Source: Psychrobacter fulvigenes
GTDB taxonomy: Bacteria > Pseudomonadota > Gammaproteobacteria > Pseudomonadales > Moraxellaceae
Direction: 5' to 3'
Assembly: GCF_904846155.1 (NCBI RefSeq)
Contig: NZ_CAJGZP010000001.1
Location: forward strand, 1,922,001-1,986,000
Length of the DNA: 64,000 bases
The notes under the pieces are model-generated. The model was not told the DNA's origin. It saw only the letters and a program-made list of their open reading frames with translations, and did not search any database. Shown one piece after another: positions 2,793 through 29,249 of this stretch (the stretch's first letter is position 1; the number at the start of each line of letters is the position of its first letter). The position numbers and the translations under genes are program-made.

Positions 2793-3911
2793 TTAATTAA
2801 TTCTGATGACTTTTAACAACTGCTCTCGAATTCCCACAGCAGATGTTGCCAGATTCACAGTAGAAAATTGAATTTTATGGTTATCAATAACAACATACTC
2901 ATTCACATCTTCCCCTATCGAAGGATGAATAAATAGACCACTAGCATTCTCATTAAGAGGGTCATTACTGTCCTCTTGAGATCTTAGGTAGGAATACATC
3001 TGATACAGGTATCCACTTCTTAATGTTTCATCTCGATACCACCCACTTGTAACCACAGCATTGAACTTAGTATCGATAACGATGCGATGTGCTGATTCAA
3101 TATTATCAATGATGATGTCCGTCTTCATATTAGGAAGGATATTATCCATACCTAAGCTTTTATCACTTATTTGCCACTTAAGCACTTTCCCCGAGCTTAC
3201 TCTATAACATTGATTTGACAGAACCGTAGCATAAAATCCAGCTACCCCTTTTTCAAAGAGTTTGCGCAGCCACGGTAGATTGTCTCTCTGTGCTGAAGAC
3301 AACTGCCTTGTACCTTTAGATTCTGTTGGTAAGGCCAGATTAAACGCTAGATGTGCAGCCGTTACCATTGGCTTATCTTCAGCATCATGTCTCCCAAACC
3401 TATCCACTGATACCTCACTACGACTGGGGCGTGTTTGACTGACACCCATTCGTCTTAGACGTATATCTAGCGATCGACACCAATGAGCCAAATCTTTACG
3501 TTTAACGACTTTAGAGATAGCCTCAAGAGCCGCTCGGACATATCTATTACGCGGCGTATCAATAGTTAGCTCATCAAAGCAGCAGGCGACCTTACCCCGC
3601 TCAAGCAACCTGCCTCTTTCAGTACCTATAAGGTCTATTCTGCCACGTACACGACTGAGCACAGCATCACGAGACTGATAGCTATAACTTAGGTTACGTT
3701 GAATGCGATGTTCGACCCGTCGACAAAGCATTTCGGCGATTAAGTCTGGAATATCATCAGGGTTCTCTTCAACTGCAATATTTGCAACGTCAAGCTCTCT
3801 ATAGATATCTGATGCATAGAACATAAGAAGCCAAAGATTACGAACAGGTATCTTGCCTATATAGTTAACATCATCAGAGGACTCTATAGCTATGTCTTCT
3901 TTAACTGGCAT
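2793..3911 (-). CDS. mcrC: McrC, nuclease subunit of a McrBC-type modification-dependent restriction system
   Basis: A 372-residue McrC-family protein. The N-terminal part (GKIPVRNLWLLMFYASDIY) is the typical McrC opening, and the C-terminal half carries a PD-(D/E)xK nuclease core: IIIDNIESAHRIVIDTKFN contains the D-T-K catalytic triad segment near residue 275. In known systems McrC associates with the GTPase McrB and cleaves DNA containing modified cytosines. The ATG lies inside the end of mcrB (11-bp overlap), so the two are translationally coupled. It is the last gene of the minus-strand unit; an IS lies about 290 bp downstream. Confidence 0.9.
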   Translation of the reverse strand: MPVKEDIAIESSDDVNYIGKIPVRNLWLLMFYASDIYRELDVANIAVEENPDDIPDLIAEMLCRRVEHRIQRNLSYSYQSRDAVLSRVRGRIDLIGTERGRLLERGKVACCFDELTIDTPRNRYVRAALEAISKVVKRKDLAHWCRSLDIRLRRMGVSQTRPSRSEVSVDRFGRHDAEDKPMVTAAHLAFNLALPTESKGTRQLSSAQRDNLPWLRKLFEKGVAGFYATVLSNQCYRVSSGKVLKWQISDKSLGMDNILPNMKTDIIIDNIESAHRIVIDTKFNAVVTSGWYRDETLRSGYLYQMYSYLRSQEDSNDPLNENASGLFIHPSIGEDVNEYVVIDNHKIQFSTVNLATSAVGIREQLLKVIRIN

Positions 3912-5949: not shown

Positions 5950-6050
5950 TTTTACCCTATTCAAGATTAGTGGCTAATTTTGAGTTGATTCTGCTAGATG
6001 AAAATTTATTGATACCAGTGCTTAAGCGCCTTTTTTGTTAAAAGTCTTAC

Positions 6051-9000: not shown

Positions 9001-9272
9001 GGTAAGCTCAATAAGTCGATAACACTATCATGTTCAGGGTCTTGCTGTATCTCAAAAAGAGCCTCCCATGGCAAGATATAGCCATCATCTGACTGATAAG
9101 CGAGCTCTTCATCCGTTAAGCTTTCCCAATAAAAATCTGCATCTGTTTTGGCTGCCGATTTATAGCTATGTTTTAAACCAATGTCATCATATTGCAATGG
9201 CGCAGGCTCGACACTATTGACTACAGTTTCTGATGTTGCGGTCTGCTTATTTTTATTTCTTTTCCAAAATGC
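6051..9272 (-). CDS. zorD: ZorD, SNF2-type helicase of type I Zorya, separated from its start codon by an IS
   Basis: A giant SF2/SNF2 ATPase. The N-terminal half of about 550 residues is a ZorD-type region; the helicase core follows with DDMGLGKTLQL (Walker A), VCDEAQKIK (motif II), ACTGTPVENS (III) and DQATDRAYRIGQDKEV (VI). Zorya ZorD is the effector ATPase recruited to phage DNA. The frame is open to the IS junction at 9272. When the IS5-like element and one TA copy are removed, it joins an ATG at 10117-10119 to read MKLAFWKRNK. The IS therefore lies in codon 3. No start codon lies between the IS-derived stop and a TTG at 9197 (native codon 29), so any product would lack 28 residues and a normal ribosome site. 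Confidence 0.88.
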   Translation of the reverse strand, partial: AFWKRNKNKQTATSETVVNSVEPAPLQYDDIGLKHSYKSAAKTDADFYWESLTDEELAYQSDDGYILPWEALFEIQQDPEHDSVIDLLSLPVSSELYPVIRSENGLSDEDFQIILDGWCDKNKIKFKGSVKREGAIVSIAGEEYLLSESVWKLVEKIKAFSRVTDKDKALNQKYWAQIRSLANKSEANLDEFLRKTIVLAPEELQLNLRKNLVSTESIVEVQPDFKDAPANWLQTFDSYNDVQSEYTISLPEGGLAHVIIEPQVKSVLSEIKKMPNRRIAGERAQTFLHNPFSQLGDDAVEVISSEGFEQSKEEAEIYSYRMSIDKAYDESSYFISAQLTLHENSNREKDPILLALSNVVQAEHFIAAYEKTSPIFLWAGYNIDRTSYLDDQVAALKNDLENIQQYEDDLQAKNVLDLNNYSARVIGIGEAEKLSSEAIQKDSGESQWLPQNLIEESATLSQLTANNDIETTTERLKQRIEQAELKGSDFVQHPDSDVSITLDEAKSLLDELCDSKNENAAESNTEQEQPDAAEKKKKSTLLIANNIDEAGFTKQRAEILSLDEKNRPAARMPSSFRDQEFSLKKHQEYGVAWLQNLYQYAPMQVSGCLLADDMGLGKTLQLLCFIGEILETAEDKKPALVVAPVSLLENWESEINRFFSAKFGKVLSLYGDNLKQRKIPKHLISSQLRDDYGITKLLEDNWLGSADIVLTTYETMRDLEFSLGRVDWSVMVCDEAQKIKVPTAMVTKAAKAQKADFKIACTGTPVENSMVDLWCLFDFIQENLLGSLTEFNKEYRRPIERKEDENSAIINNLRQLIEPQVLRRMKHDVAELPAKHEVDDCKDIAISQLQRTLYKQVSNDTQSLSEQGNKGVMLKALHDMRMICAHPLKLHQQATINDSPKAKWLIETLELIKQKNEKVIIFTEFRDIQVFIKRLLLERYGLNVTTVNGDTNTDSKKGLTRQATIDKFQEIEGFNAIILSTAAVGFGVNIQKANHVIHYTRSWNPAKEDQATDRAYRIGQDKEVYVYYPSISAQDFETFEVKLDKLLSSKRRLADDMLEPNTEITQELIQSVY

Positions 9273-9274
9273 TA

Positions 9275-10110
9275 GGGCGTGTCATCAATTAAGCCAAACG
9301 ACACAAGAAACTAAGTGAATGGCACTAAGGAAATGACTGGCTAACTTATCATAGCGAGTGGCAATCGCACGATACTGCTTAATCTTGGCAAAGAAGTTCT
9401 CTATTAGGTGCCTCGCTTTATAAAGCTCTTTATCGAAGTCTCTTGGCTGCAGCCGATGACACTTAGATGGTATAACTGCATTACCTTGCACTGCTTTAAT
9501 CGGTTCAATAACGCGGGCATCAGCATCGTAAGCTTTATCGGCAAGCCACGTTTGGCTAATACTGACATCAAGCAATTCATCTGAGCCACACAGATCATGA
9601 GCTGCCCCACCTGTTAGATAAAAGCCAGTAGGATTGCCTAGCGCATCTGTTCGAGTATGTATTTTAGTCGTCAGTCCACCTTTGCTGCGTCCAATGGCTT
9701 GATCCCTTTTTTTCCAGCACTGTGCTGGTGGGCTTTAACAATCGTGGCATCTAGCATGGCATATTCGTCATCGGTTGTTCAGAGAGTTGATTAAAAACCT
9801 GCTCCCATACGCCTTTTTTTGACCAGCGACTAAAACGAGTATGAATCACTCTGAAGTCGCCAAAGCGTTCAGGTAGGTCACGCCAAGGTATGCCGGTCTT
9901 GTAACGGTACAGAACCGCTTCTACGAACAAGCGGTTATCCTTTGCAGTAACACCAACGTCACTTGGTTTACCAGGTAGAATGTCTTTAATTCTCTCCCAT
10001 TGGTCATCACGTAGGGCATGTCGTCTTGTCATAGTCATTGAGCTCAAATTCCTAAATACGATCTAAGTATAGCTTATTCTGAAATATCTATGCTAATTGA
10101 TGACACGCCC
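9275..10110 (-). mobile_element. IS5-family (IS427-like) insertion in zorD
   Basis: About 836 bp with terminal inverted repeats starting GGGCGTGTCATCAATTA at the left end and its complement at the right end (TAATTGATGACACGCCC). A TA duplication flanks it (9273-9274 and 10111-10112), as expected for IS427-type members that target TA. It encodes a DDE transposase on the minus strand that is now split by two -1 shifts. It lies between zorC and the body of zorD and interrupts zorD in its third codon. Confidence 0.9.
9285..10038 (-). pseudogene. IS5-family transposase, frameshifted twice
   Basis: The first segment starts at the ATG at 10038 ([31 protein letters not shown]) and runs to a stop at 9751 after SEQPMTN. 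Homology continues in the -1 frame as [20 protein letters not shown], which carries the first catalytic Asp. It shifts by -1 again at an A7 run (9713-9707) to GRSKGGLTTKIH, TWLADKAYD (second Asp) and KARHLIENFFAKIKQYRA (Glu). IS427-type elements can use one programmed shift, and the A7 run is a plausible slippery site. Two shifts suggest at least one inactivating change, or a sequencing error in the homopolymer. Confidence 0.8.
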
Positions 10111-10137
10111 TAATTTCATTAAAGATACTCTATAGTT

Positions 10138-11511
10138 TTAATCTGGAAATATTCCTAATTCTTGCAGTCTGCGATCGAAGGATTTCTCCCAAGCTCCTTG
10201 ATGTGATAAGTAAAACTGAGCCTGAGAAGTTGACTTTAAGCTAGTAATCTCTACTTTACCTGTTTTTCCCTGAAAAGGAGGGTACGGAAGCTTACGATAA
10301 AAGTAGGTCGCATTATTCATTTCAGAGAACTCTACTATATAGAACCCCCCTATTTTTATCATAAAAGCGTTTGCAGCATTACTTTTACCAACAATCCTTT
10401 TAAATCGCCCAGCATTATTTCTCTTAAACTCTGCTTGTTGCGCTGTTGGATAACGCATTGCTTGATCATTTAAGAATATTTCTGAAAGCGTGACTTGTTT
10501 GAGAAATCTCATCCAGTAATTAAACCTTCGAACATCGGCACTACTACCAAAAACGGTAAAGAAGGCTTCTAAATCTGCTCTAACAAACCATTGAATCACC
10601 ATTTTTTTGGTATCCAGGCTGACGTTACGCCAGCCTGCCGATGAGTCGTATTGAGGATTACCCCACTGCGTCAAACAGATGCTCTTTAAGACTTCATGTA
10701 CTATCGTACGTCTTGAGGTTGTTGCATAACGTTCAAGTAGCGCTGTTAAGATGTCTTTGGTATAGATTGGGTTTTGTTCTAATAAACGCAGAAAGCGAGG
10801 GATGGCTTCGAGGTAATCGTCCTCTCTCATCGTTTTAACAGACTTGATAGATGAGCTTACTAAACTATCCCAAAACCAACTATTCGGTGCGATACTTAGG
10901 CTTTCTAGCTGACTACTTACTCTTTCCTCATCGCTATTATGTAAAAAGTTACGAATGAATTTTTTGGAAGGGTCTGCTGATAGTAGTTCAGGATGTTCAG
11001 TTAACGTCGTTAGCCATTTTTTAGGACGTGTGGTGGTTTGAAATAAAGAGGAACGGTTGGTACTTAAGATATTTTTGAGCCCAAGCCAGTTATTAGGCCG
11101 TTTGTTAATTTCATCTTGCTCTACTGCAAAATAACTATAAAGCAAAGGAAAATAAACGGCCTTAAGCAATTCAGGCTTCATGTTATTAAACTGCTCAACC
11201 AGCTGGCTACCTATGAATGTAAATAAAATTTTATCTTCGTAATTTGACAGTTTCTTACTCAGTGACCATGCTAGATTCTTCCAATCACGCTTGGTCAGAT
11301 ACTCTGTGCCATGTCGCTCTAGCTTTTTAATAGAATTGATAATTTTTGCTTCAATAGGCTGAGTATTTTCCATATCATCAAACTTACGCTCAATGATATC
11401 TAAGGTCTTTATCAATTTATGCGGTCTAGCAAATTTGTTTTGTGCTTGAGCAGGCTCAGAAAACCTCTCAACGCTCTGGTTTAGTCTTTGCTTTAAATCA
11501 GCGATACTCAT
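10138..11511 (-). CDS. zorC: ZorC, type I Zorya DNA-binding component (EH-signature protein)
   Basis: About 457 residues, assigned mainly by position between ZorB and ZorD and by its C-terminal EH-signature-like region (FIRADLEAFF-type segment, DSSADVRRFNYWMRFLKQ, then KIGGFYIVEFSEMNNATYFYRK near the end). The protein is largely helical and soluble, with no membrane segment. In type I Zorya, ZorC is cytosolic, binds DNA and works with ZorD downstream of the ZorAB motor. The ATG at 11511 is preferred to the GTG at 11514 because AAGG of the zorB end is well placed as its ribosome site. It ends 18 bp before the native zorD ATG, so the operon is tightly packed. Confidence 0.85.
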   Translation of the reverse strand: MSIADLKQRLNQSVERFSEPAQAQNKFARPHKLIKTLDIIERKFDDMENTQPIEAKIINSIKKLERHGTEYLTKRDWKNLAWSLSKKLSNYEDKILFTFIGSQLVEQFNNMKPELLKAVYFPLLYSYFAVEQDEINKRPNNWLGLKNILSTNRSSLFQTTTRPKKWLTTLTEHPELLSADPSKKFIRNFLHNSDEERVSSQLESLSIAPNSWFWDSLVSSSIKSVKTMREDDYLEAIPRFLRLLEQNPIYTKDILTALLERYATTSRRTIVHEVLKSICLTQWGNPQYDSSAGWRNVSLDTKKMVIQWFVRADLEAFFTVFGSSADVRRFNYWMRFLKQVTLSEIFLNDQAMRYPTAQQAEFKRNNAGRFKRIVGKSNAANAFMIKIGGFYIVEFSEMNNATYFYRKLPYPPFQGKTGKVEITSLKSTSQAQFYLSHQGAWEKSFDRRLQELGIFPD

Positions 11512-11516
11512 CACAT

Positions 11517-12251
11517 CTACCTTGGCAACTGACAGCTTTCAACAGCAATAGAATCAAAGGTTGGTTGATCCTCGATATCCTCTTGTTCTTTTAAGCCATA
11601 AAACTGCATTCGTAGCTCAACGCGGCGTGAGGCTTCTTTACTGTCTTTTGCAGCGTTAAACGACACTCCACCTGCTAAAAACAACTGCTTTATTTGACTT
11701 TCTTGCGCAGCAGTTAAATTAAGCTCTGGGTTGAATTTTGGGTCAAGCAAACTACACATGACCCATTCTGAGCGCCGCAAGCTTAAATTTAGGTTATATA
11801 AATATGAGCCATCCGTATCTGTAAAGCCTTCAATCACGATTTGTTTGAACCATTTTTTGCCATTTTCACTATTGGCTGCATCTAAGACTACAGGTACTAG
11901 GGCACTTAATGCTTTTACACCTTCTGAATTTAATCGATAGTCATTATGACCAAAGCGGCCAGCTTCACCAAAATTAATACGGTTTTCTTTACAGTCGACG
12001 GTAACCAGTTGATCTTTTAAAGTAGGATCATCTTTAATACTGGTACAAATATCTAAAATCTCTGAGCTGCGCTCTTTTTCTGCTTGGGTGGCTTCATTGA
12101 TCTTTTTGGTCACTACCATTAAAGACACCGCCATCACCACCAAAAACAAGGTCATAAGCGCGGTCATCAAGTCAGCAAATGATATCCAAAAAGGTTTCTC
12201 ACCCTCATCTTTTGGACGGTGCTTTTTTGCGTATCTATTATTACCAAACAT
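11517..12251 (-). CDS. zorB: ZorB, MotB/OmpA-like stator subunit of Zorya
   Basis: A 244-residue MotB-like protein. A single N-terminal membrane helix (about residues 21-47, PFWISFADLMTALMTLFLVV) contains the conserved Asp in FADLMTALM that conducts ions in MotB-type stators. A linker follows, then a C-terminal OmpA-type peptidoglycan-binding domain (RFGHNDYRLNSEGVKALS, IEGFTDTDGSYLYN, LSLRRSEWV, AKDSKEASRRVEL). ZorB pairs with ZorA in the inner membrane and anchors the motor to the cell wall. It starts 18 bp after zorA and ends 5 bp before zorC. Confidence 0.93.
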   Translation of the reverse strand: MFGNNRYAKKHRPKDEGEKPFWISFADLMTALMTLFLVVMAVSLMVVTKKINEATQAEKERSSEILDICTSIKDDPTLKDQLVTVDCKENRINFGEAGRFGHNDYRLNSEGVKALSALVPVVLDAANSENGKKWFKQIVIEGFTDTDGSYLYNLNLSLRRSEWVMCSLLDPKFNPELNLTAAQESQIKQLFLAGGVSFNAAKDSKEASRRVELRMQFYGLKEQEDIEDQPTFDSIAVESCQLPR

Positions 12252-12269
12252 TAGCGATACACTCCAAAA

Positions 12270-14342
12270 TTACAGTCTGACTTTTTGGGTCAAATCTTCA
12301 AGATCTTCTACCACATTCCCTAGACCCTCGACACCCGTTGCAAGACGTTTGACCGCCTGATCAAGGGTATTATCAAAGGATACCAGTGACTGGTTTAGGC
12401 TACTTTCAACAGAGCTACCAAAACTATCAAAGCTTTTCACTAATACATCGCTGACTTCTGTTAGATACTCTTGCATCTCTGCCTTCACTTGATTAAGCGC
12501 GGTTGTCATACCTTGCATATCATTAAGCATTTGACTGCTCATGCCTGCCTCAGATTTTGATTGCTGAATGAGACCCTCGAGTGTTTTGATGGCAAGATTA
12601 ACGCTATTTTGAGAGTTCTTATAATCTCTGACCAACTCAATCAAGTTGCTGCTGGCGTTAGTCATATTGATTGAGGTGGTATTAACCTGTGCAATAAGTT
12701 CTGAGGATTTTTCAGTAACCGTACTCAGCGAACTACCCGCTGTCGTAAACTGCTCGGACGCTCTGCGCATTTTTTCTGCGCCCTCGTTCATACCAGTGAT
12801 ACTGTCTGTAGTGACTTTAGACAGTTTCTGGATATTCTCTTTATGCATTTGAACGGCGTCTTGGCTGTGCGCTATCAGCTCTTTAATCTCGCCACCTAAG
12901 TTATCAATGAGCGTTGTTGACTGCTCGTGCAGTTTTTGTTGGTTGTCTGATATTAGGCGATCTTGCTCGATGCACTGTTCGGCAACATTTGCCAGCAGAC
13001 CTGACATGGAGGCGCCCAAATCTGAGACGAGCTCTGACATCTTACTATTTAGCTGTTCTGCAGCTTGTAATCCTTGCTCACTCATCTTGGCGGAACCTGT
13101 AGATAGGTTTTCTACCATATCGTTCATTTGAGCTGCCATCTCATTTTGCTTTTGATGGATACTCTCCATCATGTTTGTCATTTGCGTCTCTAGCGTCTTC
13201 GTTGATGTTTCACTATTGACTTGCATATCTGTAATGAGCTGAGAAAACCCTGACTGCATCTCACGCATAGCGGTGACAGACTGCGTCATCATCTCACTCA
13301 TGCCATTCATTTGACTGCCAAATGTCGTTTCAAGCTTACTCATAAAGGCGGTCAACACATCAGTCATTAGTTCCTGTACTGCTGATCCTTGATCGCCACT
13401 CACTTGCTGCACGCTCGAGGCAATCTTATCTAAAGGACCTTGCAGATTATCGGTAATAGACTCGCCAATCTGGGTTGCCATCGACTGACTGGTTTGCGCA
13501 TAAGACTCACTTAAATGAGTCGCAAAAGCTGTCTGATTCTTTTTATTCTCATCAACCAGATTGGTCATCATGACCTTTAGCTCATTTACTAGACTGTCTT
13601 TGAGCTGGCGAGCATTGGCTTCGTTTGCTTGCGACGATTTTAATAGTTTGGCTAAATATTCCTCACCGCTGTCATCAGGAATAAAGGCATTATCAATAGC
13701 TGTGTTTAACCGCTGTAATTGCGCGTAGCACTGTCTCAGCCATGACTTTTCACGCCATGTGATAAGCATAGCGACCAGAATAGCCAATCCAGACGCCATG
13801 AATGCCTCAGCAACGCCAGTCAGTAGCAGATTTAGACTGTCTTGAACCGTGTCAGGACTGCCAGCAGGATCAAAGGCTAGTAGACCGATGAGCAAACCTG
13901 CAAAGGTAACAATAATACCGACACCTGTAATCATGCCGGGCAAATGCTTATAAAACTCTACCTTTAATGGTACATCTACGACGATGGATTCTGTAAAAAA
14001 CGCTTCACTTGGTACGGTTGCATGTGAGTGAACAACCCTATCTTCCCCATCTACAGTCTCATAAGTATCATGGAAGGTTTTTTTGTAATTCGACCAAGCC
14101 TGTCTTAATGACAAATGACTACTAAACTTCTCATCTAATAAACCCTTATTTATTCCAGATTGATCATCAATGGCTTCTAGTTCATCGGCGACTTGTGATA
14201 GCTTATTATTTAATGCTCTTGCAGGTCTTAAATAATTAAAGAAAAATCTAACACCTACATAACTAACAAAAATCAGAATTAATGTTGGGAACAAATAATA
14301 CTCTTGCGAGACTTGCGCTATTTTTAACCAATTTAAATCCAT
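12270..14342 (-). CDS. zorA: ZorA, MotA/TolQ-like proton-channel motor with long coiled-coil tail
   Basis: About 690 residues. Membrane helices are visible near residues 10-35 (YYLFPTLILIFVSYVGVRF), 138-160 (MITGVGIIVTFAGLLIGLL) and 175-200 (GVAEAFMASGLAILVAML), which is the MotA/ExbB core. The remaining 480 residues are a Ser/Thr/Gln/Met-rich helical tail resembling a chemoreceptor coiled coil, matching the long cytoplasmic ZorA tail of type I Zorya. The tail is thought to pass the invasion signal to ZorC/ZorD. The start is uncertain: ATG at 14342 (after GGATGG) is preferred over ATG 14351 and GTG 14363. It is the first gene of the zor operon. Confidence 0.92.
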   Translation of the reverse strand: MDLNWLKIAQVSQEYYLFPTLILIFVSYVGVRFFFNYLRPARALNNKLSQVADELEAIDDQSGINKGLLDEKFSSHLSLRQAWSNYKKTFHDTYETVDGEDRVVHSHATVPSEAFFTESIVVDVPLKVEFYKHLPGMITGVGIIVTFAGLLIGLLAFDPAGSPDTVQDSLNLLLTGVAEAFMASGLAILVAMLITWREKSWLRQCYAQLQRLNTAIDNAFIPDDSGEEYLAKLLKSSQANEANARQLKDSLVNELKVMMTNLVDENKKNQTAFATHLSESYAQTSQSMATQIGESITDNLQGPLDKIASSVQQVSGDQGSAVQELMTDVLTAFMSKLETTFGSQMNGMSEMMTQSVTAMREMQSGFSQLITDMQVNSETSTKTLETQMTNMMESIHQKQNEMAAQMNDMVENLSTGSAKMSEQGLQAAEQLNSKMSELVSDLGASMSGLLANVAEQCIEQDRLISDNQQKLHEQSTTLIDNLGGEIKELIAHSQDAVQMHKENIQKLSKVTTDSITGMNEGAEKMRRASEQFTTAGSSLSTVTEKSSELIAQVNTTSINMTNASSNLIELVRDYKNSQNSVNLAIKTLEGLIQQSKSEAGMSSQMLNDMQGMTTALNQVKAEMQEYLTEVSDVLVKSFDSFGSSVESSLNQSLVSFDNTLDQAVKRLATGVEGLGNVVEDLEDLTQKVRL

Positions 14343-14363
14343 CGATACCATCCGTCTAATCAC

Positions 14364-14716: not shown

Positions 14717-15205
14717 TTAAAGTTGAAAGCGTTTCAAGTCAGGATATAACTGCCTAGTCAAATCATAAATCTCATCTTCTGCCGCAATACCTTTTTTATC
14801 AGGATTTGGATAAAGAGCAGCAGTAAGAATCAATCGAGGAAGCTGCAAATACTCAGCAAACACTCTCTCCAGCTCTTTTCTTAGAAATTCAAACCAAAAA
14901 GTAGTAATTTCTGCGGGTGTATGAGGGTCAGGTATCACATACGTAAATAAATCTGCATTAAGACAATACTGCATACGGAACGACGCTGCCATACGATCAT
15001 GCAACCACTGCAAAGTTCTATGATCAAAACTTACAAGCCCATCACGCAAGTCACTCAACTCTGTACGAACATTAACCACGGCTTCAGCTTCACGATGCTT
15101 AGCACTAGCAAAGTCAATGATGATTCGTAATGCTTCTCTATAGCAATCATGTTGGATCCATCCGATACGGGTAGAATCACCGTGAAAATAGTCACTAACT
15201 ATCAT
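14717..15205 (-). CDS. small protein of unknown function between Zorya and the methyltransferase cassette
   Basis: About 162 residues that I do not recognise. It is soluble and helical, with no signal or membrane segment. Aromatic/histidine-rich stretches such as SDYFHGDSTRIGWIQHDCYR, HRTLQWLHDRMAASFRMQYC and TTFWFEFLRKELERVFAEYL stand out. The ATG at 15205 is chosen; the frame also opens at TTG 15211. It is divergent from the plus-strand methyltransferase gene with about 160 bp between the starts, so the pair may share a control region. It could be a regulator or accessory part of that cassette, or unrelated cargo. Confidence 0.7.
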   Translation of the reverse strand: MIVSDYFHGDSTRIGWIQHDCYREALRIIIDFASAKHREAEAVVNVRTELSDLRDGLVSFDHRTLQWLHDRMAASFRMQYCLNADLFTYVIPDPHTPAEITTFWFEFLRKELERVFAEYLQLPRLILTAALYPNPDKKGIAAEDEIYDLTRQLYPDLKRFQL

Positions 15206-15309
15206 TACCAAGTCTCATTAATAAAATTCTAGTCTTATTATTGCAAGTGATAAGATGCTGTATCACCTCATTCAAAGCAACTAAACCTTTAAATCTTCTA
15301 AGATAGCGC

Positions 15310-15365: not shown

Positions 15366-18149
15366 ATGGCATTTAACCAAACCCAGTTTTTTGAAGATTT
15401 AGAAAAATTAACCACCAAAGTCATTGTTAAGAATAAAAAAGACGACTTTATATACGATTTTCTAACGCTGCTAGATGTCTCAAAATCTACGATAACCTCA
15501 CTTAAAAAGAATGACGGTCGTTTTAACGTCGCAGCCAATCCTGAGGCTGGCGAGGTTGCCAATAAGCATCGTATCTACTTTAAGCCTGTAGATGAAGATC
15601 AAGACCTTGCTAAAGCACTAAGTAAGGTGATGAACAGCCCAATCATCAACCAGCACAAAATCCGTATGGTGATGGTAACGGACTTCAACACCGTACTGAT
15701 TAACGACACTAAGTATGATGAGACGCTTGACTGCGACTTTACCGATCTTTATAAAAACTACCATTTCTTATTGCCACTTGCCGGCCTAGAGCGTGCACGT
15801 GAGTACTCAGAGCACCCTGCTGATGTACAAGCGTCAGAGAAAATGGGTCGCTTGTTTGACCATATCCGCAAGCTTAACGAGTTTAATACTGCTGATGACT
15901 TACATGCTCTCAATATATTTTTGACGCGACTACTATTCTGCTTTTATGCTGAAGATACGGGTATTTTTAAAGCAGACCAGTTCTATGACGTGATTGATAG
16001 AACCACCAATATAGATGGCAGTGACGTCGATAGCGTCTTGTATGAGCTGTTTGAGGTTTTAGACTTACCTGAGTTTAGCACCGAGCGCGATGCCAAGCCC
16101 ACTCACCTAAGCGCATTCCCCTATGTGAACGGCAGCTTGTTCGAATATCAGTTTGCCATTCCGGAGTTTGATGCGCGTACCCGCCGTATCTTACTAGAGT
16201 GCGCACGTTTGAGCTGGGCCGAGATTAACCCCGATATTTTCGGTTCCATGTTTCAGGCAGTGATTGACCCTGAGCAGCGTGGCAGCTTAGGACAGCATTA
16301 CACCAGTGTTAGCAATATCATGAAGGTCATACAGCCACTATTCTTATATGAGCTACGTGCAGAGCTAGACACGGTCATAGCGCTGAGTCATGACAATCGC
16401 CATAAGAACAATAAAGCCGAACGCTTAGATGCCTTACTTACCCGTATAAGCCAAATCAAAGTATTTGATCCAGCTTGCGGATCAGGCAACTTTTTGATCA
16501 TTGCTTATAAAGAGCTGCGTAAACTAGAGATTGATGTATTAAAAGCACAACGCGACTTACTAGGCTCTAAGGACAATCTGCTGGGTCTAGGCTTTGATAG
16601 TGTGGTCAGCTTAGATAATCTGTACGGTATCGAGTATGACGACTTTGCCAGTCAAATTGCGCGTTTGTCACTATGGCTCGCTGAGCATCAGATGAATGTG
16701 CTATTCGAGCAAGAGTTTGGTGCATCTCAGCCAATGCTGCCACTCAAAGACAGTGGGCACATTGTTTATGGCAATAGCTTGCGTATCGATTGGAATGAAG
16801 TATGTCCAAATAATGGCAGTGATGAGATTTATATTATTGGTAATCCACCGTTCAAAGGACGGAAAAATCGTACAGAGGACCAAACAAGAGATATGGAAGT
16901 AACTTTTAAAGAATTTAAAAACTTTAAAAATCTTGATTATGTCACATCATGGTTTTGGAAAGGCGCACAGTATATTGCAGATTCAGATGCAAAACTCGCG
17001 CTCGTATCCACAAGTTCAGTTGTTCAAGGGATACAAGTTTCAATATTATTCCCTGATATTTTTGAATTAGGAATAAGTATCGATTTTGCTTATCAGTCAT
17101 TCCCTTGGAAAAATAGCGCTAAAGATAATGCAGCTGTACACGTAGTTATAATTGGCCTATCACCAAAAACCAATAAAAATAAGAAAATATTTAAGCTTAT
17201 AGGTACAAATTGGCATACAGAAAATACTGACAGTATTAACCCTTATTTGATGACTGGCAATCCTATAGCTGTTATCTCGCGAACATACCCATTTACTGAT
17301 ATTTCACAAGTTGTTGATGGGTCTAATTACACTAAGTCAGAACCTCTAATCATGGATACTGAGCAGAAGAACGAAATCTTGAACAAAGAGCCCGATTTAG
17401 AAAAATGGATTAGGCCTTTGCTTGGCTCTAAAGAATTTTTGCACGGCATTCAAAGGTGGTGCTTTTGGCTTGTTGATGCATTAGAGGACGACATTAGTAA
17501 TTCTAAAATACTAAGCGATTTAGTAGAACAAGTTAAAATTGATAGACAAAATAGTAAAAAGAAAGATACTAGAGAAAAAGCAGTATTGATTCCTCACCTA
17601 TTCCCTGAAATAAGACAACCTACGGATGGAAGTTATCTTCTAATTCCGAAAGTATCTTCGGAAAGGCGATTTTATATTCCAATAGGTTTTTTCGATAGCA
17701 ATGTCATTGCTACAAACAAGGTGAGTATTATTCCTAATGGATCATTATATGATTTTGGATTAATAACTTCTAAAATGCATAATGAATGGATGCGGCTGGT
17801 AGCTGGTCGATTAGAAAGCCGTTATAACTACTCAGGAACCATCGTCTACAACACCTTTCCCTTCCCTGACGCCACAGACGAGCAGAAACAGCACATTGAA
17901 AGTCTTGCGGAAGAAATTCTACTCGCTAGAGCCAGTAATGCTGGCATGACATTAGCTGAGTTATACGATCCGGATAAGATGCCTGAGGACTTAAAACAAG
18001 CGCATAGCAACCTCGATGATGCGGTGGACAAGCTGTATCGCATGCAAGGATTTTCCAATACCGAAGAGCGCTTGGCGCATTTGCTGGCACGTTATGAGCA
18101 GCTTATCGAAGCGGAAAAGCAAAGTAAAATCAAAAAGAAGGCTAAGTAG
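15366..18149 (+). CDS. MmeI/YeeA-like DNA N6-adenine methyltransferase of an unassigned restriction-like cassette
   Basis: About 927 residues. The SAM motif I is FDPACGSGNFLI (about residue 368) and the adenine-methyltransferase motif IV is GNPPFKGR (about residue 493). The N-terminal 200 residues resemble the front of MmeI/YeeA-type proteins (YFKPVDEDQDLAKAL, LPLAGLERA, HPADVQASEKMGRLFDHI), but I do not see the ExK pair of a PD-(D/E)xK nuclease, so cleavage may come from a partner. Residues about 500-800 should be the target-recognition region; their DNA is clearly more AT-rich than both flanks. A C-terminal helical part (LYDPDKMPEDLKQAHSNLDDAVD) is typical of the family. The ATG at 15366 is used rather than the upstream TTG. 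The helicase gene follows after 63 bp. Confidence 0.88.
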   Translation: MAFNQTQFFEDLEKLTTKVIVKNKKDDFIYDFLTLLDVSKSTITSLKKNDGRFNVAANPEAGEVANKHRIYFKPVDEDQDLAKALSKVMNSPIINQHKIRMVMVTDFNTVLINDTKYDETLDCDFTDLYKNYHFLLPLAGLERAREYSEHPADVQASEKMGRLFDHIRKLNEFNTADDLHALNIFLTRLLFCFYAEDTGIFKADQFYDVIDRTTNIDGSDVDSVLYELFEVLDLPEFSTERDAKPTHLSAFPYVNGSLFEYQFAIPEFDARTRRILLECARLSWAEINPDIFGSMFQAVIDPEQRGSLGQHYTSVSNIMKVIQPLFLYELRAELDTVIALSHDNRHKNNKAERLDALLTRISQIKVFDPACGSGNFLIIAYKELRKLEIDVLKAQRDLLGSKDNLLGLGFDSVVSLDNLYGIEYDDFASQIARLSLWLAEHQMNVLFEQEFGASQPMLPLKDSGHIVYGNSLRIDWNEVCPNNGSDEIYIIGNPPFKGRKNRTEDQTRDMEVTFKEFKNFKNLDYVTSWFWKGAQYIADSDAKLALVSTSSVVQGIQVSILFPDIFELGISIDFAYQSFPWKNSAKDNAAVHVVIIGLSPKTNKNKKIFKLIGTNWHTENTDSINPYLMTGNPIAVISRTYPFTDISQVVDGSNYTKSEPLIMDTEQKNEILNKEPDLEKWIRPLLGSKEFLHGIQRWCFWLVDALEDDISNSKILSDLVEQVKIDRQNSKKKDTREKAVLIPHLFPEIRQPTDGSYLLIPKVSSERRFYIPIGFFDSNVIATNKVSIIPNGSLYDFGLITSKMHNEWMRLVAGRLESRYNYSGTIVYNTFPFPDATDEQKQHIESLAEEILLARASNAGMTLAELYDPDKMPEDLKQAHSNLDDAVDKLYRMQGFSNTEERLAHLLARYEQLIEAEKQSKIKKKAK

Positions 18150-18212
18150 CTCTTTATACGAGCCGCAGCCTAAAAAATAATGCCACACATCTTGTCTATA
18201 GTAGAGTAAACC

Positions 18213-20414
18213 ATGTCTCAGCCCGTTAATATCTTAAATCAAACTTACGCCCGCACGGGTCAAAGCAAGACACATAATTCGATGGGTATGCGTGAAATGC
18301 AGGCACGTGCGTTCGAGAAGCGTAATAGCCAATATTTGCTTATCAAGTCGCCACCTGCCTCTGGTAAATCACGCGCCATGATGTTTTTGGCCTTAGACAA
18401 GCTTATCAACCAAGGGATAAAAAAGGTCATCATTGCCGTGCCAGAGATGAGTATTGGTAAATCCTTTAAATCAACAGCGCTTAGTGACTTTGGTTTCTTT
18501 GCCGATTGGGAGGTGGCTGATCGCTATAACTTATGTTTAAGTCTCGCTCAAAGTGATACTCGCAAAACTGCTATCTTCTCAGAGTTTATCACTTCAGACG
18601 TCAATGATAATTCTCTTCCCCAAGTCCTAGTCTGTACTCATCACAGTTTTAGATATGGCTTTGATAAGATTATCGAAGATGGCGGCAGTATTGAGCTATT
18701 TAACGATGTACTTATCGGTATTGATGAATTCCATCATGTATCAGCAGATGACTCTAACCGCTTGGGAGCCATACTCGATAGCATTATGACGCAGACTAGC
18801 GCGCATATTGTGGCAATGACGGGTTCTTATTTCCGTGGTGACTCAGTGCCTATCTTGTCAGATAGCGATGAAGAAAGGTTCGATAAGGTGACTTACACCT
18901 ATTACGAACAGTTGAATGGTTATGAGCACCTAAAATCATTAGGACTCGGCTATCACTTTTATAAAAAGTCATTCTTTGATGCTTTAAACGAGTGCTTAGA
19001 TACCAGTAAAAAGACCATCATTCACATTCCTAACGTCAATAGCTTAACCGCTGAGACAGACAAGTATGAGACTGTTGGTCGCATCATAGATATTATCGGT
19101 GAAAGTGAATCTCGTGATGAGAATACTGGTGTCATCACAGTACGAACACACGATGGCAGACGCTTACTACTCGCAGACCTAGTCACTGATGACGCCATAA
19201 GAGTGAATACACAGGCTTACTTAGCGGATATTACCTCTCGCGAGCAGATGGACATCATCGTAGCTCTTGGGATGGCAAAAGAAGGCTTTGACTGGGAATA
19301 TTGTGAACACGTATTAACCATTGGTTATCGCGGTTCTCTGACCGAGGTAGTGCAGATTATTGGACGCTCAACACGCGATAGCGCAGGCAAACACCATGCC
19401 CAATTTACCAACCTAATCGCTGAACCAGAAGCGGATAAGTCTGAGGTGACAAGCTCTGTTAATGACTTACTAAAAGCCATTACCTTGTCGCTGCTTATGG
19501 AGCAAGTGCTTAAACCTAATATCAACTTTAAACGTCGTAGTGAGATAGACATATTAAGCACGTTAGACTTGCCGGCAGGTACCATTATTATTGATGATAC
19601 TATCAATCCTCCCTCTGATCGGGTGATGAATATACTTAACCAAGACCGTGAAGAGATATTGGCTCAGCTATGCCAGAACGCAGATCATATTAAAAAGTAT
19701 ATCGCCGCCGAAACCAATAACGTCGAGACCGAGGCTGTATCGGATACCGTCATCCCAAGTATTATTCGTAGCAAATACCCGACATTAGATGCCAATGAAG
19801 TACGGCAAGTACAAGAAGGCGTCATGCAATATATGGCCATTAACCGCCAAGGTGGCGTGGTTGAAGGTAAGGATATCCCTGAAGATGCGATCATCGAAAA
19901 TGAGCGCTGTTTCATTAAGCAAGGCACAGAGTATGTAGATATCGCTACTCTAAATGCTGAACGAAAAAGTCAGCTCAATGAAAACGACATTATTAAAGAG
20001 CGCCACCTGCCAGCTAACGCAAAAATATATAACCCTAAAACCAAATCAAGCAGCAGCAATGACTCAAATCCTAGCAACGGCTTTGTGAAGGTTGGCAGTA
20101 AGTTTGTCAATGTGAACAACCTTCCCATCGATCTCGTGAAATCGGTCAACCCCTTTCATGATGCGTATGAAGTCCTCTCCAGAACCGTCGATAAAGAAGT
20201 GCTACAAACCATTAACGATGTCGTGCATGCCAGCCGCTCTACCGTCACTGAGGCAGAAGCGGTACTAATGTGGCCAAAGATAGTTGCGTTCATAAAAAAT
20301 AAAGGTCGTCAGCCTAATAGAAATTCAGAAGACGCTATCGAGCGGCGCATGACTGAAGTTATCTCCTATGTCAGAAACCAAAAAGCTAAGCGAGAAGCCA
20401 ATAGTCATGATTAA
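18213..20414 (+). CDS. SF2 DEAD/DEAH-type helicase of the methyltransferase/GIY-YIG cassette
   Basis: A 733-residue superfamily 2 ATPase. Walker A is SPPASGKSR (residues 46-54), motif II IGIDEFHHV (about 168-176), motif III VAMTGSYF, and motif VI VVQIIGRSTRDS (about 380-390). The second RecA domain is followed by about 330 residues of mixed helical and basic sequence ending in EDAIERRMTEVISYVRNQKAK. It resembles helicases of type I/III-like restriction and defence loci more than repair helicases. Its last 8 bases overlap the ATG of the GIY-YIG gene, which implies coupling. By position it would be the DNA translocase of a split restriction system; this role is inferred. Confidence 0.85.
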   Translation: MSQPVNILNQTYARTGQSKTHNSMGMREMQARAFEKRNSQYLLIKSPPASGKSRAMMFLALDKLINQGIKKVIIAVPEMSIGKSFKSTALSDFGFFADWEVADRYNLCLSLAQSDTRKTAIFSEFITSDVNDNSLPQVLVCTHHSFRYGFDKIIEDGGSIELFNDVLIGIDEFHHVSADDSNRLGAILDSIMTQTSAHIVAMTGSYFRGDSVPILSDSDEERFDKVTYTYYEQLNGYEHLKSLGLGYHFYKKSFFDALNECLDTSKKTIIHIPNVNSLTAETDKYETVGRIIDIIGESESRDENTGVITVRTHDGRRLLLADLVTDDAIRVNTQAYLADITSREQMDIIVALGMAKEGFDWEYCEHVLTIGYRGSLTEVVQIIGRSTRDSAGKHHAQFTNLIAEPEADKSEVTSSVNDLLKAITLSLLMEQVLKPNINFKRRSEIDILSTLDLPAGTIIIDDTINPPSDRVMNILNQDREEILAQLCQNADHIKKYIAAETNNVETEAVSDTVIPSIIRSKYPTLDANEVRQVQEGVMQYMAINRQGGVVEGKDIPEDAIIENERCFIKQGTEYVDIATLNAERKSQLNENDIIKERHLPANAKIYNPKTKSSSSNDSNPSNGFVKVGSKFVNVNNLPIDLVKSVNPFHDAYEVLSRTVDKEVLQTINDVVHASRSTVTEAEAVLMWPKIVAFIKNKGRQPNRNSEDAIERRMTEVISYVRNQKAKREANSHD

Positions 20415-21759
20415 ACTCGATGAAATCTATCAAAGTCGTGAGTACAAGACACTAGACGATATTTTTTTAAATGACAGTACTGGTCTACTAGACGATATAA
20501 AGCCTGCTACCAAAAGCTCGGCAAATAACAGCGTTTTAGCGCAGCAGTTTGACAGTATTAACGTTTTTATCGATCAACAGGGGCGCGTGCCTAGTAGCAG
20601 TGCTAGCGATATTAATGAAAAGATAAATGCTCGCCTCTTAGCTACCATACAAACCAACCACGCAAACTCGCAAGAATTGCTAGCTTTAGATAAGCATGGT
20701 TTATTGGCTACGCAAAGTACTACTTCTACCCTATCTGACGACAAACCGACTCTCTCAGATATAAGCGTGAGTAATAAAGATGATGGTTCTGAAAAGGCAG
20801 TCAGCGCTAGCACTAAAGAAGCTGAGCAGGTAACCGTGGCTGTTAGCGAGCCACCTGTTATTTACAGTCTAGATGATATTTTCAACAGTGATGACCTAGG
20901 GATTTTTGACAACATCCATTCTGAAATCTTAGTCAGTGATAGTCAGCTCAATTCTCGCAATACTTATGACCAGTACGATGATGAAGAAATAGCAACTCGT
21001 TTTGAATGTAAGGACTTTTATAAGTTTGAGGCAACCTTTGAGCGTATATCTCAAGCCATTCAAACGGGGGCTTTTACTAAAACTAACTTTTCATCAGTGA
21101 AAGATATCAACATTGGCAGCGTCTTCGTCTTAAACGGGATTTTGTGTTATGTAGCGGATATATACCAAGCAGAGAATCGAAAGAATGAGCGTAACCAGCA
21201 ACGACTTCGTCTGGTATTTGCTAATGGTACTGAGTCTAATATGCTCATCCGCTCATTGGCTACCGCTCAATATAAATACGAAAACAGCTACCAGTTATTA
21301 ATCACTGATCCTGACTGGATGGATGATGAGCTCGCCAAAAACTTTGGGGACGAGCGACAACTTACCGGTGTCATCTATGTTGCTAAGCTGACTGAGACCC
21401 CAAATGACTTAGCGCACTATAAACATCTGCACAAAATTGGCTTCTCAACCCTTACAGGAGAAGCGCGTACTAAACACTCGATTAGGGATACTGCTTTCTT
21501 GCAACAGCCCGTAGATATCATAGCTGAATGGCAAGTCTATGATGCCAATGCTCGTAGTGTGGAAAGTGTCTTGCATGCCTTCTTCTATGATCAAAGAGTC
21601 AAGGTATCTTCAAAAGCAGCAGATAATAATCTTTACAAGGCTACAGAGTGGTTCAATGTTCCCCTTGATGAGATTGAAAAAGCCATTAACTTAGTTATCG
21701 CTGGGGACATTAAAGACTATCGAATGGATAGTGCAGCTGGCAAGGTGGTTTTGAAGTAA
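20407..21759 (+). CDS. GIY-YIG (T5orf172/MUG113-type) nuclease-domain protein
   Basis: About 450 residues from the ATG at 20407, which overlaps the helicase stop; an upstream in-frame start at 20368 would overlap by 47 bp. The C-terminal 130 residues form a GIY-YIG domain of T5orf172 type: GVIYVAKLT, then YKHLHKIGFST, the basic stretch RTKHSIRD, and the metal-binding Glu candidate in ARSVESVLHAFF, followed by NLYKATEWFNVP. The N-terminal part is acidic and low in complexity, with two copies of a motif, TLDDIFLNDSTGLLDDI and SLDDIFNSDDLGIFDNI, about 140 residues apart. A middle domain (about residues 190-300) is unassigned. It is the likely nuclease partner of the upstream methyltransferase and helicase. 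Confidence 0.82.
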   Translation: MIKLDEIYQSREYKTLDDIFLNDSTGLLDDIKPATKSSANNSVLAQQFDSINVFIDQQGRVPSSSASDINEKINARLLATIQTNHANSQELLALDKHGLLATQSTTSTLSDDKPTLSDISVSNKDDGSEKAVSASTKEAEQVTVAVSEPPVIYSLDDIFNSDDLGIFDNIHSEILVSDSQLNSRNTYDQYDDEEIATRFECKDFYKFEATFERISQAIQTGAFTKTNFSSVKDINIGSVFVLNGILCYVADIYQAENRKNERNQQRLRLVFANGTESNMLIRSLATAQYKYENSYQLLITDPDWMDDELAKNFGDERQLTGVIYVAKLTETPNDLAHYKHLHKIGFSTLTGEARTKHSIRDTAFLQQPVDIIAEWQVYDANARSVESVLHAFFYDQRVKVSSKAADNNLYKATEWFNVPLDEIEKAINLVIAGDIKDYRMDSAAGKVVLK

Positions 21760-27500: not shown

Positions 27501-27969
27501 GGCATTTTTTGCTGAAGAAATTGATAACGATACACAAGAGGTCTTGGATGTGCTTAGCTCATCAAGTGGTAAATCGGGCGGCGAAAAAGAATCTTTTGCA
27601 GGTATGATTGTAGCAGCAAGTCTAGCTTATGTTTTAACACCTGATGGCTGTGATATGCCGATATATAGTACCGTGTTTTTGGATGAGGCTTTTTCTAATA
27701 CTGCCGAACAAGTCAGCCGCCGTGTGCTAAAAGTATTCAAAAAGCTAAACATTCATGTCAACTTAATCACCCCATTTAAGAACCTAAATTTGGCACGTGA
27801 ATCTGCCAAAAGCTTACTGATTGCTGAGCGTAACCAAGAACATCATGAAAGCCGCTTATGCGAAGTTACTTGGAAAGAGGTGGATGACATCCTGGCAAAG
27901 AATAAGCTTGACCAGTCCTCCCAAGACAACCAAGAAATTGCAGAATTAGGTATTGAGCTTTATGACTAA
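24580..27969 (+). CDS. jetC: JetC, SMC/MukB-like ATPase of type I Wadjet
   Basis: About 1129 residues. The N-terminal head has Walker A TGDNGSGKSTLIDGLM (about residue 50). Long coiled coils occupy about residues 300-480 and 650-900 around a hinge region near 500-620. The C-terminal head has the ABC signature SSGKSGGEKESFAGM and Walker B YSTVFLDEAFSNT. It is the loop-extruding motor of Wadjet. Start choice: ATG 24580 has AGGAT 7 bp upstream, while ATG 24565 overlaps the jetB stop; the first is preferred. The stop overlaps jetD by 8 bp. The gene appears intact. Confidence 0.93.
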   Translation: MQQSPNDATLNITPLSQIRLAKLSVFNWGSFNGLHTANIDMEGTLITGDNGSGKSTLIDGLMALLMPAGRAAFNVAAAQNDKSDRSLISYMRGSFGSAHDGINTKVKSKRDKGVITGLSAEYLSDDGQKMTLLALFWTTVASNSLSDVKRLYVVAQKQLPLAEVLDQFAQGNVRKLKQWLSMQPEVTCCDDNFSDYQELYRRMLYMDNPNAPALLSRALGLKKIDDLTELIRTLVLEPSGIRDDAKEIVKEFGDLVAIHTRLQDAKEQVTHLERLPKLADDIAKTQLIIDDTTKQKQALPIYFAQCYAKLYQQKQQQLSQQLEQLERELSQIEQQERDTTDTVNRCRDEYMNLGGNRIDSLKKDIQATKDTLNRTNATASRYQTLCRNLNIKTTLDEQTFHSNITQANGVQEHLAKQEADREREFGDCAIALNETEEHHRELSQEIEALKSQPNSNIPPKFNQLKDAISRSLDIDPNTLMYTGELVDIEEDEQSWQGAIERALGGLKTTLLVPEEYYSLITKWLNSQHTGLHVRVQVVLDNHDTNSHNEFKAEGFLRKLKWRTHPYCDWLKAFLSRYDLLCVANTEQLDRTTFSMTQQGLIHKHKGHFDKKDLQSIDDRRHWQLGFSNKNKLALLQIEIEQLKTKLQEDSKHWKDARAAMHSVSEQISSWKKLEEFEWSQINVPYWQQKLEYEEHELSAIENAQGDLKQAKIRLDSAKESLSRIAQDKKEKVRQNGAKEQELSSLQKELDSSKRLAELGLDEQVKQQLTALIGDIELNDLSYQTKITNQFEEKIGENQGRLNKYTNAAIGVISSYKSKPQWQAYTVEWETGLNGMDDYIAHLNQLNNEGLPELLDEFKKRLNKHATQSLARLSNHLSMVHDDIRRRIGHINEVLKKTEFRQDSHLKLSLKRENFLHVQTFNQKLNQALSAVNDDDHTRRFYLLKEVIDILDKATSSTSSTTLESLRLLDPRYQLAFFAEEIDNDTQEVLDVLSSSSGKSGGEKESFAGMIVAASLAYVLTPDGCDMPIYSTVFLDEAFSNTAEQVSRRVLKVFKKLNIHVNLITPFKNLNLARESAKSLLIAERNQEHHESRLCEVTWKEVDDILAKNKLDQSSQDNQEIAELGIELYD

Positions 27970-29249
27970 AGGGATGGTAACTATAGAAACACCAAATTGG
28001 GGTTTGATGCCTGCAGCAGTCATCACACAACTAAAAAAGCGTGAGTGGGACAATCTATCACGCCTTAAAGCCCGTTTAAAAAATGAAAGAGCCTTCCCTA
28101 TTGTCATAAGCCTAAAGCCTCCCAAAACAGGTAATGAATTACTCAACCATACACTGCATTTCCACGAGTTTGTGCAAGCGTGGCGCAATTTTGCTTTCGA
28201 CGATATGGTGCAATGGCAGAATAGTAGCTTTCGGCATTTTTCTGAACAGACCATTCCTATCACTTTGATCATTCCTAATATTCAAGTAATGTCTGAAATA
28301 TTAGGCGCATCGGCACGCCAGCAGCTTAAAGACTGGCAAAAAAAACTAAGCTACCTTCATACCGAAATGTCTAAAGGCATGATAATGTCATCTGCTAGCA
28401 GTACAGATAAGATTGCAGATAGCTGGCAAGAGACTTTATTTTTCGCTCTCATTGAGATGTTAGAGGTTATTGATAACTTAAGTGCTGATGATCTAAAATT
28501 ACTGGTTGCGCTTATACCGCAATTAAAAAAAGGAATGGGTACTGGGCTATACTTGCGTGCATTGCCAGTATATTACGTTGATACCAAATTTATCGAAAGC
28601 TATCACAAACTTATCGAAACCATACTGGAAGCCTTTTATTCTGGGCAAGTCAAAGAACAAGGCTTAGCTTCTTGGCTCGGATGTTTGGATAAGCCTAAAG
28701 GCTGGTTAATGGTACGACCTTTGTGCCCTGATACAAAATATGCTTTATCTGGCTTGCCTATTTTAAGATTACCGATAGATGTTCTACATAGCCAAGCGCT
28801 GCCTGCTAAACATATTTTAGTCGTAGAAAATGAGCAATCTTGCTTGGCGCTCCCAGAAACAGAAAATACTATTGCAGTTGCAGGTGGTGGTAAAAATATT
28901 AATTGGATGGATGCTGGCTGGTTACAACCAAAAGAAAGTGGCGTACTGGGGCGATATTGACTCTGAGGGTTTGATGATATTAAGCCGGGCTAGAAAACAT
29001 TGTCCAAAGTTGACCGCTATCATGATGGACGACCAAACGATAAAACAGTTTATCAATCGTATGGTAGATGAGCCGGACTCTATAAATCATGAGCCAACAC
29101 ACTTAACTCATGACGAGTTAACATTATTTACAGAATTGCGCCAAGGAATATATGGCTTTAAAAGGTTAGAGCAAGAAAGACTGCCAAGTGAATATATTAA
29201 GCAAGCAATAGACAAGTGGCTCAATAGGCCTATCCCATATTCTTTGTAA
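27962..29249 (+). pseudogene. jetD: JetD, Toprim-type nuclease of type I Wadjet, with a one-base frameshift
   Basis: The first frame (27962-28960) encodes the DUF3322-like N-terminal part and the start of the Toprim/DUF2220 domain: HILVVENEQSCLALP, then AGGGKNINWMDAGWL. It then runs into ESGVLGRY and a stop. The rest of the Toprim domain continues in the +1 frame as KVAYWGDIDSEGLMIL, including the metal-binding D-x-D, to a natural end at 29249. Removing one A from the A4 run at 28930-28933 restores WLQPKKVAYWGDID. Either the strain has lost the Wadjet nuclease or there is a homopolymer sequencing error. The ATG (27962) overlaps the jetC stop. Confidence 0.88.

Follow-up and report, generated by a model that had tools for sequence, protein, structure and literature searches.

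A probable split restriction-modification system of the dnmA-yeeB-yeeC kind in a defence island of Psychrobacter fulvigenes

In Psychrobacter fulvigenes, an MmeI-like DNA methyltransferase (MTase) gene is followed by genes for an SF2 helicase and a GIY-YIG protein, and the locus raises the question of whether these three genes (the trio) form one working restriction-modification (R-M) system or an orphan MTase beside two relics. The stretch of DNA analysed (the window) comprises 64,000 nucleotides of contig NZ_CAJGZP010000001.1, positions 1,922,001 to 1,986,000. A check of its open reading frames (ORFs) confirms the three open, tightly packed frames claimed in a preliminary description of the locus, all on the plus strand: the MTase (DnmA/YeeA type, 927 aa, 15366..18149, ATG at 15366), the helicase/translocase-like ATPase (YeeB type, 733 aa, 18213..20414) and the T5orf172/GIY-YIG protein (YeeC type, 463 aa, 20368..21759, ATG at 20368). 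The gap of 63 bp given there between the first two genes is correct; the 8-bp overlap given for the last two holds only if the GIY-YIG protein starts at the in-frame ATG at 20407 (450 aa), the longest frame overlapping the helicase gene by 47 bp. On sequence evidence the trio is genuine and clearly bounded, has a layout that was already known and is probably functional; it is read here, at a probability of about 0.72, as a split, ATP-dependent R-M system of the dnmA-yeeB-yeeC kind.

The MTase possesses the complete Pfam chain of the MmeI family: MmeI_N, MmeI_hel, MmeI_Mtase (5.1e-102), MmeI_TRD (2.1e-62) and MmeI_C. Its catalytic domain (residues 348-610; 16407..17195, plus strand; PF20473) contains DPACGSG at residue 368 and GNPPF at residue 492, and family and NPPF motif together identify the enzyme by prediction as the N6-adenine type. 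PADLOC, given the MTase alone, calls it REase_MTase_IIG (6.7e-299), and its alignment with MmeI (5hr4; 4.6e-181) runs from residue 78 on. Both results favour the reading suggested by the PADLOC label, in which the MTase is a Type IIG/IIL (MmeI-like) enzyme sufficient in itself and its two neighbours are hitch-hikers. The MTase, target recognition and C-terminal domains of a Type IIL enzyme are indeed present; the D-x-ExK nuclease site is absent. Where MmeI-type enzymes have the IEQK of this site, the alignment places IYFK (residues 70-73; 15573..15584, plus strand), and no ExK occurs at the aligned nuclease position in any of 13 trio MTases (the window's and those of 12 of the 14 plasmid loci described below, all but L004 and L056). 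In six of six stand-alone MmeI-type MTases of the genus (L047-L052, from eight such places in Psychrobacter) the site is kept, as in VDAFIPKLVMIEQKSRG, and the helicase and GIY-YIG genes are absent from all six of these loci (11-19 kb each, E up to 1e-4). This comparison of stand-alone controls with trio MTases indicates that the MTase's own nuclease is missing where both partners are present, and it bears out the preliminary description of the MTase as nuclease-less. A hidden ExK nuclease was considered and rejected; the E-x-K triplets found in 4 of the 13 trio MTases are scattered and lie off the aligned site. Since hitch-hikers are, moreover, not expected in a fixed order across phyla, a self-sufficient enzyme is very unlikely here.

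The helicase is recognized by Pfam through ResIII just above its cut-off, with DEAD and Helicase_C just below theirs. Its motif residues, PPASGKS (47-53), DEFH (171-174), Q381, G384, R385 and R388, are kept in 48 of 48 sequences, with one Cys at S50 of Walker A. Foldseek returns 521 matches at E up to 0.001; the 50 listed, which include EcoR124I HsdR and LlaBIII, belong to helicases or translocases and have low TM-scores, and assignment to a helicase subfamily by fold was given up for lack of discrimination. The third protein matches MUG113 (PF13455) and T5orf172 (PF10544). Its GIY-YIG catalytic domain, delimited by Pfam and by the conserved motif residues (residues 334-442; 21367..21693, plus strand), keeps G334, Y337, K356, G358, R367 and E399 invariant in 50 of 50 relatives. 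A small central beta-barrel, Tudor/SH3-like at best, may occupy residues 232-315 (21061..21312, plus strand; a weak VIA-align match); the VIA-align rows contain no GIY-YIG chain and hence say nothing for or against that fold. Foldseek gave no match for the GIY-YIG protein at E up to 0.001, and sequence search yielded no solved relative of either protein. A PADLOC match to a named system had been set against novelty in the preliminary description; the MTase received such a label, whereas neither partner has a strong match (best PbeA, 2.8e-6, for the helicase and PD-Lambda-1, 7e-4, for the GIY-YIG protein).

The helicase and the GIY-YIG protein have a module of 45 residues in common, at the C-terminus of the former (residues 681-725; 20253..20387, plus strand) and the N-terminus of the latter (residues 55-99; 20530..20664, plus strand). 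The two copies are related at an hhalign probability of 96.8 (94.9 in an earlier run; single-comparison E 2.8e-10); the 10 column shuffles reached no more than 4.1, and the MTase and non-overlapping helicase windows no more than 1.2. In the predicted model of the GIY-YIG protein, the module corresponds to helices 53-71 and 82-96, with confidence values (pLDDT) mostly about 90. The GIY-YIG protein also repeats the pattern (S/T)LDDIF, at residues 28-33 and 167-172; in loose form the pattern is found in 42 of 50 relatives, 22 of which have it two or more times, counted without a chance control. On a Morganella plasmid (L059), an ORF of 95 aa (8933-9220) lies between the helicase and a short GIY-YIG protein (9224-10138), and may be the N-terminal module encoded as a chain of its own.

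The trio occurs as a unit far beyond Psychrobacter. Genome loci were taken as the best 80 of 579 helicase relatives in a helicase profile search of genome contigs, of which 16 have no room on one side and were left out of the two-sided count. The MTase gene upstream and the GIY-YIG gene downstream, on the same strand, were found at all 64 loci with room on both sides (one-sided counts, 67/67 and 76/76), to judge from the record titles in Pseudomonadota, Bacteroidota, Bacillota, Actinomycetota, Campylobacterota, Planctomycetota, Chlamydiota, Spirochaetota and others. Such identity of order and strand argues that the trio is not due to chance; the co-occurrence that the preliminary description proposed to check by profile search and neighbourhood survey was thus found, in many phyla. 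The 46 loci on viral contigs, which include near-duplicates (such as L176 and L183), comprise 43 with a helicase above 300 bits, 18 of them without room; the full trio is present at 24 of the remaining 25, and the exception has a truncated helicase. Where there is downstream room, the GIY-YIG gene follows at 38 of 41 viral loci, the helicases of the other three (L156, L184 and L185) being truncated. The helicase is matched by 263 plasmid records, 148 of which cover at least 80% of it, and the annotated order MTase, helicase, GIY-YIG was seen at 14 of 14 loci chosen from the 263, some with insertions; the MTase is in pieces in one of these and the helicase is called hypothetical in one. On the Ligilactobacillus plasmid L056 (4280-6970), the MTase annotation is fragmented, with one fragment inverted, and the genes next to it are annotated as helicase and GIY-YIG.

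Within Psychrobacter (105 genomes), all 12 genomes with an MTase match above 340 bits also match the helicase and the GIY-YIG protein, some in damaged form, and in four further genomes (G006, G067, G095 and G101) the helicase is truncated or at a contig edge. Over 398 Pseudomonadota genomes the helicase was found in 24 (about 6%, the window's own included and two partial), a patchy spread that resembles that of mobile defence genes. Near copies of an E. coli plasmid trio are present in 4 of 5,426 E. coli genomes, in three over most of the length, and a phage collection gave three matches only, weak or partial. Partial helicase copies were also seen in Acinetobacter plasmids (H65-H70, H73-H83 and H90), and yeeA/yeeB pieces are named in the blaOXA-23 transposons Tn2006 and Tn2009 in the accessible part of one paper (PMC9258068); these copies and pieces are possibly remnants of the dnmA-yeeB-yeeC cluster.

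The layout itself has been described, and in this the preliminary description, which called the system undescribed, went wrong; its split three-chain reading stands in so far as the three genes are conserved as a unit within a defence island and assign modification, motor and presumed cleavage to separate chains. The excerpts of two papers (Nye et al., 2020, PMC7261158; a 2023 mBio paper, PMC9973331), on which the statements about this cluster here are based, describe B. subtilis dnmA as encoding an MmeI-like N6-methyladenine MTase (GACGAG) without an endonuclease motif, with a helicase gene first and a T5orf172/GIY-YIG gene second downstream. The same excerpts state that the order is kept in other species, that the surroundings are richer in defence-family genes than random regions, and that Morgan et al. 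(2009) noticed the cluster and made a Type I-like proposal. The window has the MTase type and the gene order of this cluster: an ExK-less, MmeI-like adenine MTase with helicase and T5orf172/GIY-YIG genes downstream on the same strand. One relative (P0312) is named 'DNA methylase subunit YeeA' by one source, and PF20473 is matched in 7 of 14 control genomes, B. subtilis included. A later-named system for this cluster was not found in the limited literature searched; in the passages seen, recent reviews mention DnmA as an orphan or gene-regulating MTase, and the HNH-based three-gene set of PMC12409345 is, from the part available, a different system.

Rates of change bear on whether the two partner genes are still in use. 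Four Psychrobacter relatives were compared, dS being saturated in the fourth; the three with finite dS give ratios of nonsynonymous to synonymous change (dN/dS) of 0.05-0.06 (helicase gene), 0.08-0.17 (GIY-YIG gene) and about 0.07 (MTase residues 1-345). By this measure purifying selection acts strongly on both partner genes in Psychrobacter, and the trio is probably not a relic in this genus. Truncated or partial sequences affect the GIY-YIG proteins of L005 and L040 and the MTases of L038 and L042, of which only the value for the L038 target recognition domain (TRD) is used below; L039 has no GIY-YIG entry in the comparison of relatives, and L043 ends inside the MTase at a contig end.

The TRD (residues 632-835; 17259..17870, plus strand; PF20466) is exchanged between otherwise similar systems. 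It is 46-49% identical to those of L036, L039, L041 and L044, whose MTase N-terminal parts are 91-98% and helicases 90-97% identical to the window's, and 31% identical to that of L038, whose MTase holds an insert. Nucleotide identity dips at about 16866-17766; at 17166-17766 it is down from about 80-95% to about 45-65%, and it then recovers. A protein search gave 120 MTases, 86 of which match the window's MTase in the N part at 88% identity or more (observed minimum 90%); in 79 of the 86 the TRD is less than 70% identical. These 86 and the window's MTase (87 in all) contain 23 TRD types at a 70% threshold, and across pairs identity in the TRD hardly follows identity in the N part (r 0.12). The six stand-alone MmeI-type enzymes exhibit the same pattern in milder form (N part up to 99%, TRD 56-73%). 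TRD dN is 0.45-0.52 in all four Psychrobacter comparisons and, because TRD dS is saturated or high, the variants are old and exchanged rather than newly selected. We read this exchange as selection for changed specificity, as would be expected for a system that distinguishes self from non-self.

A further regularity concerns where the trio accepts other genes. At least 300 bp separate MTase and helicase at 23 of 75 genome loci and 10 of 34 viral loci, as against 1 of 79 and 0 of 39 for helicase and GIY-YIG protein; the sole wide gap of the latter kind (L124) is a scoring artefact, in which a weak N-terminal GIY piece fell under the score filter. The gaps between MTase and helicase mostly hold co-directional, often defence-like ORFs. 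Twenty were chosen from 67: 14 lie above a Pfam cut-off, one lies below and five are unmatched, the families being Schlafen/AlbA_2, RhuM, Fic, YhcG nuclease, DUF4268, FRG, DUF3800, AAA_15 (OLD-like), Abi_C, DarT and CoiA_N. Ten of the 20, picked mostly for a Pfam match, were given to PADLOC, and eight match some model at E up to 1e-3.

These results bear on the explanation concluded for B. subtilis DnmA, namely an orphan (regulatory) MTase beside two relic genes, and several observations weigh in its favour and against an active R-M system. As far as the excerpts go, deletion of dnmA, yeeB or yeeC left infection of B. subtilis by three phages unchanged (PMC9973331), loss of dnmA had no effect on transformation (PMC9973331, PMC7261158), and the verdict of the 2023 paper on the B. 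subtilis cluster is that of a relic. Broken copies exist in Psychrobacter: the MTase is split by an insert in L038 and has an in-frame stop in L042, and the GIY-YIG gene is broken in L039 and has a stop in G077. Remnants occur elsewhere; three Psychrobacter genomes (G022, G025 and G047) have GIY-YIG remnants only, and 115 of the 263 plasmid records are partial copies, with no match that extends over 80% of the helicase. The genome loci examined are the 80 with the best helicase scores, and partners may be missing beside more distant helicases. An MTase retargeted for regulation would likewise account for TRD exchange taken by itself, and the TRD dN/dS (0.16-0.30 where dS is finite, dS being otherwise saturated) gives no measured positive selection. 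Against an orphan MTase stand the strong purifying selection on helicase and nuclease with their motif residues kept, the presence of all three genes at every one of the 64 genome loci with room, and the exchange of TRDs among similar systems, which is unexpected for a fixed regulatory target. Phage experiments on Vibrio crassostreae are reportedly those of Piel et al. of 2022. Their outcome, as told in the available part of PMC9973331, was that deletion of dnmA and of yeeB made the host more sensitive to some phages, which reports phage protection in part. Selection, TRD exchange, insertion slot and shared module are the reasons for which an active split R-M system is favoured over an orphan MTase with relics, which is thought improbable for this locus; these data go beyond what the excerpts of PMC7261158 and PMC9973331 contain and bear on the relic question.

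As a split R-M system, the trio might work as follows. The MTase would read a short non-palindromic site through its TRD and mark one adenine, by extension from B. subtilis DnmA, its own nuclease domain having decayed. On unmarked foreign DNA it would recruit or license the helicase, which would move along the DNA, and the GIY-YIG protein, presumably tied to the helicase in a complex through the shared terminal module, would cut. Because modification would be on one strand only, cutting may be expected to need two communicating sites, served by the motor as in Type III and ISP enzymes. Translocation, cutting and the two-site rule are drawn by analogy with Type I, III and ISP enzymes, and the anti-phage action is likewise presumed. 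In the copies L038/G082 and L042/G102 the MTase is damaged and the helicase and nuclease frames are open; these copies, together with the viability of a B. subtilis dnmA deletion reported in the part of PMC7261158 at hand, indicate that the nuclease is probably not free-running, which presumes no sequencing errors and no active MTase fragment.

The same damaged copies with open partner frames would also suit an anti-phage role without cutting at unmodified sites, for example one in which the MTase only directs or holds back a motor and a nuclease that work on intermediates of replication or recombination (BREX-like or abortive). The accessible text of PMC9973331 adds that the genomes of Bacillus phages show no avoidance of the DnmA motif, which also weighs against an active R-M system. 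TRD diversification implies that the choice of site matters, and the GIY-YIG domain keeps its catalytic residues; action on intermediates is for these reasons held to be distinctly unlikely. In the split R-M reading, the data can be taken a step further, with about even odds: DnmA-YeeB-YeeC would be a widespread, active and separate R-M type, in which the MmeI nuclease has been replaced by a module-docked helicase-nuclease pair, TRD swapping is the evolutionary engine, and the slot between MTase and helicase takes up toxin and other defence genes that form a second layer of protection. An active split R-M system would mean that many genomes are misannotated and that the conclusion for B. subtilis is a special case; the Psychrobacter copy, with all frames open and clear predictions from its sequence, would be suited to testing.

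The trio lies between other defence systems. On one flank is a minus-strand Zorya type I system (ZorD/C/B/A, 6051-14363; PADLOC), and on the other Wadjet I (JetA/B/C/D, from 22068). JetD is seemingly divided over overlapping plus-strand frames (27953-28960, which spans profile positions 3-299 of 398, and 28830-29249), so Wadjet I may be inactive, or there may be a sequence error. Pieces of IS4/IS5-type transposases (9285-9575 and 9751-10047) lie between ZorC and ZorD, in the minus-strand stretch 6051-10047; the ZorD frame has a TTG start and its best match runs from profile position 42 onward, which suggests that the insertion sequence may have cut its N-terminus. A pair of minus-strand genes at 2793-5964, McrBC-like by sequence impression, adjoins Zorya; PADLOC gives the first protein weaker REase_II and other matches (best 4.7e-19) and the second none.

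One further gene is linked to the trio. This ORF of 164 aa (14717..15211, minus strand), divergent from the MTase, is found in seven of the 105 Psychrobacter genomes, each of which belongs to the 16 that have the helicase (nine of the 16 are without the ORF). In six genomes it adjoins the MTase, and in G095 it lies on a different contig from the helicase. It stands beside the MTase at the relatives' loci L036, L038, L042, L044 and L045; two copies have a stop, and the Halomonas locus L070 has a 33% identical copy downstream of its trio. Searches of Pfam, PHROG and plasmids returned nothing for this ORF, which may be an accessory or regulatory gene but does not belong to the fixed set of the system. 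At 551-1117 (plus strand) a small protein with a signal-like N-terminus (VFGWMEDAC...) is encoded, relatives of which occupy the slot between the MTase and helicase genes in L036, L038 and L045/L063; no PHROG was found for this protein and no Pfam family for its relative L036:11311-12009.

Among known systems, BREX and DISARM have a different gene set, and the MTase resembles their PglX and DrmMI distantly. BREX was not adopted (PglX-type profile NF033452, 39.4 bits against a cut-off of 500); nor was DISARM, whose DrmMI profile scores 123 bits versus 992 for REase_MTase_IIG, the neighbours having been scanned for DrmA/B/C in part. The MmeI family (Type IIL/IIG) has in common with the trio the whole MTase-TRD architecture and TRD variability; the trio differs in having no ExK nuclease and separate helicase and nuclease genes. 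Type I systems (HsdM/S/R), which likewise exchange TRDs and carry accessory genes within the operon, resemble the trio in keeping recognition and modification apart from the motor. They have a separate HsdS with two TRDs, whereas the trio has a single TRD within the MTase, no S subunit and no further fixed gene; and HsdR unites motor and PD-(D/E)xK nuclease on one chain, whereas here the motor and a GIY-YIG nuclease are on chains of their own. Type ISP enzymes (LlaBIII) combine MTase-TRD, SF2 motor and a different nuclease in one polypeptide for sites modified on a single strand; the trio has three chains, and the Foldseek match of its motor to LlaBIII is unspecific among SF2 proteins. The closest counterpart is the dnmA-yeeB-yeeC cluster of B. 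subtilis and V. crassostreae, likened by its description in the excerpts: B. subtilis YeeB and YeeC are reported there to miss stretches in their C-terminal parts (PMC9973331), and the MTase type, the gene order and the defence-island setting are the same.

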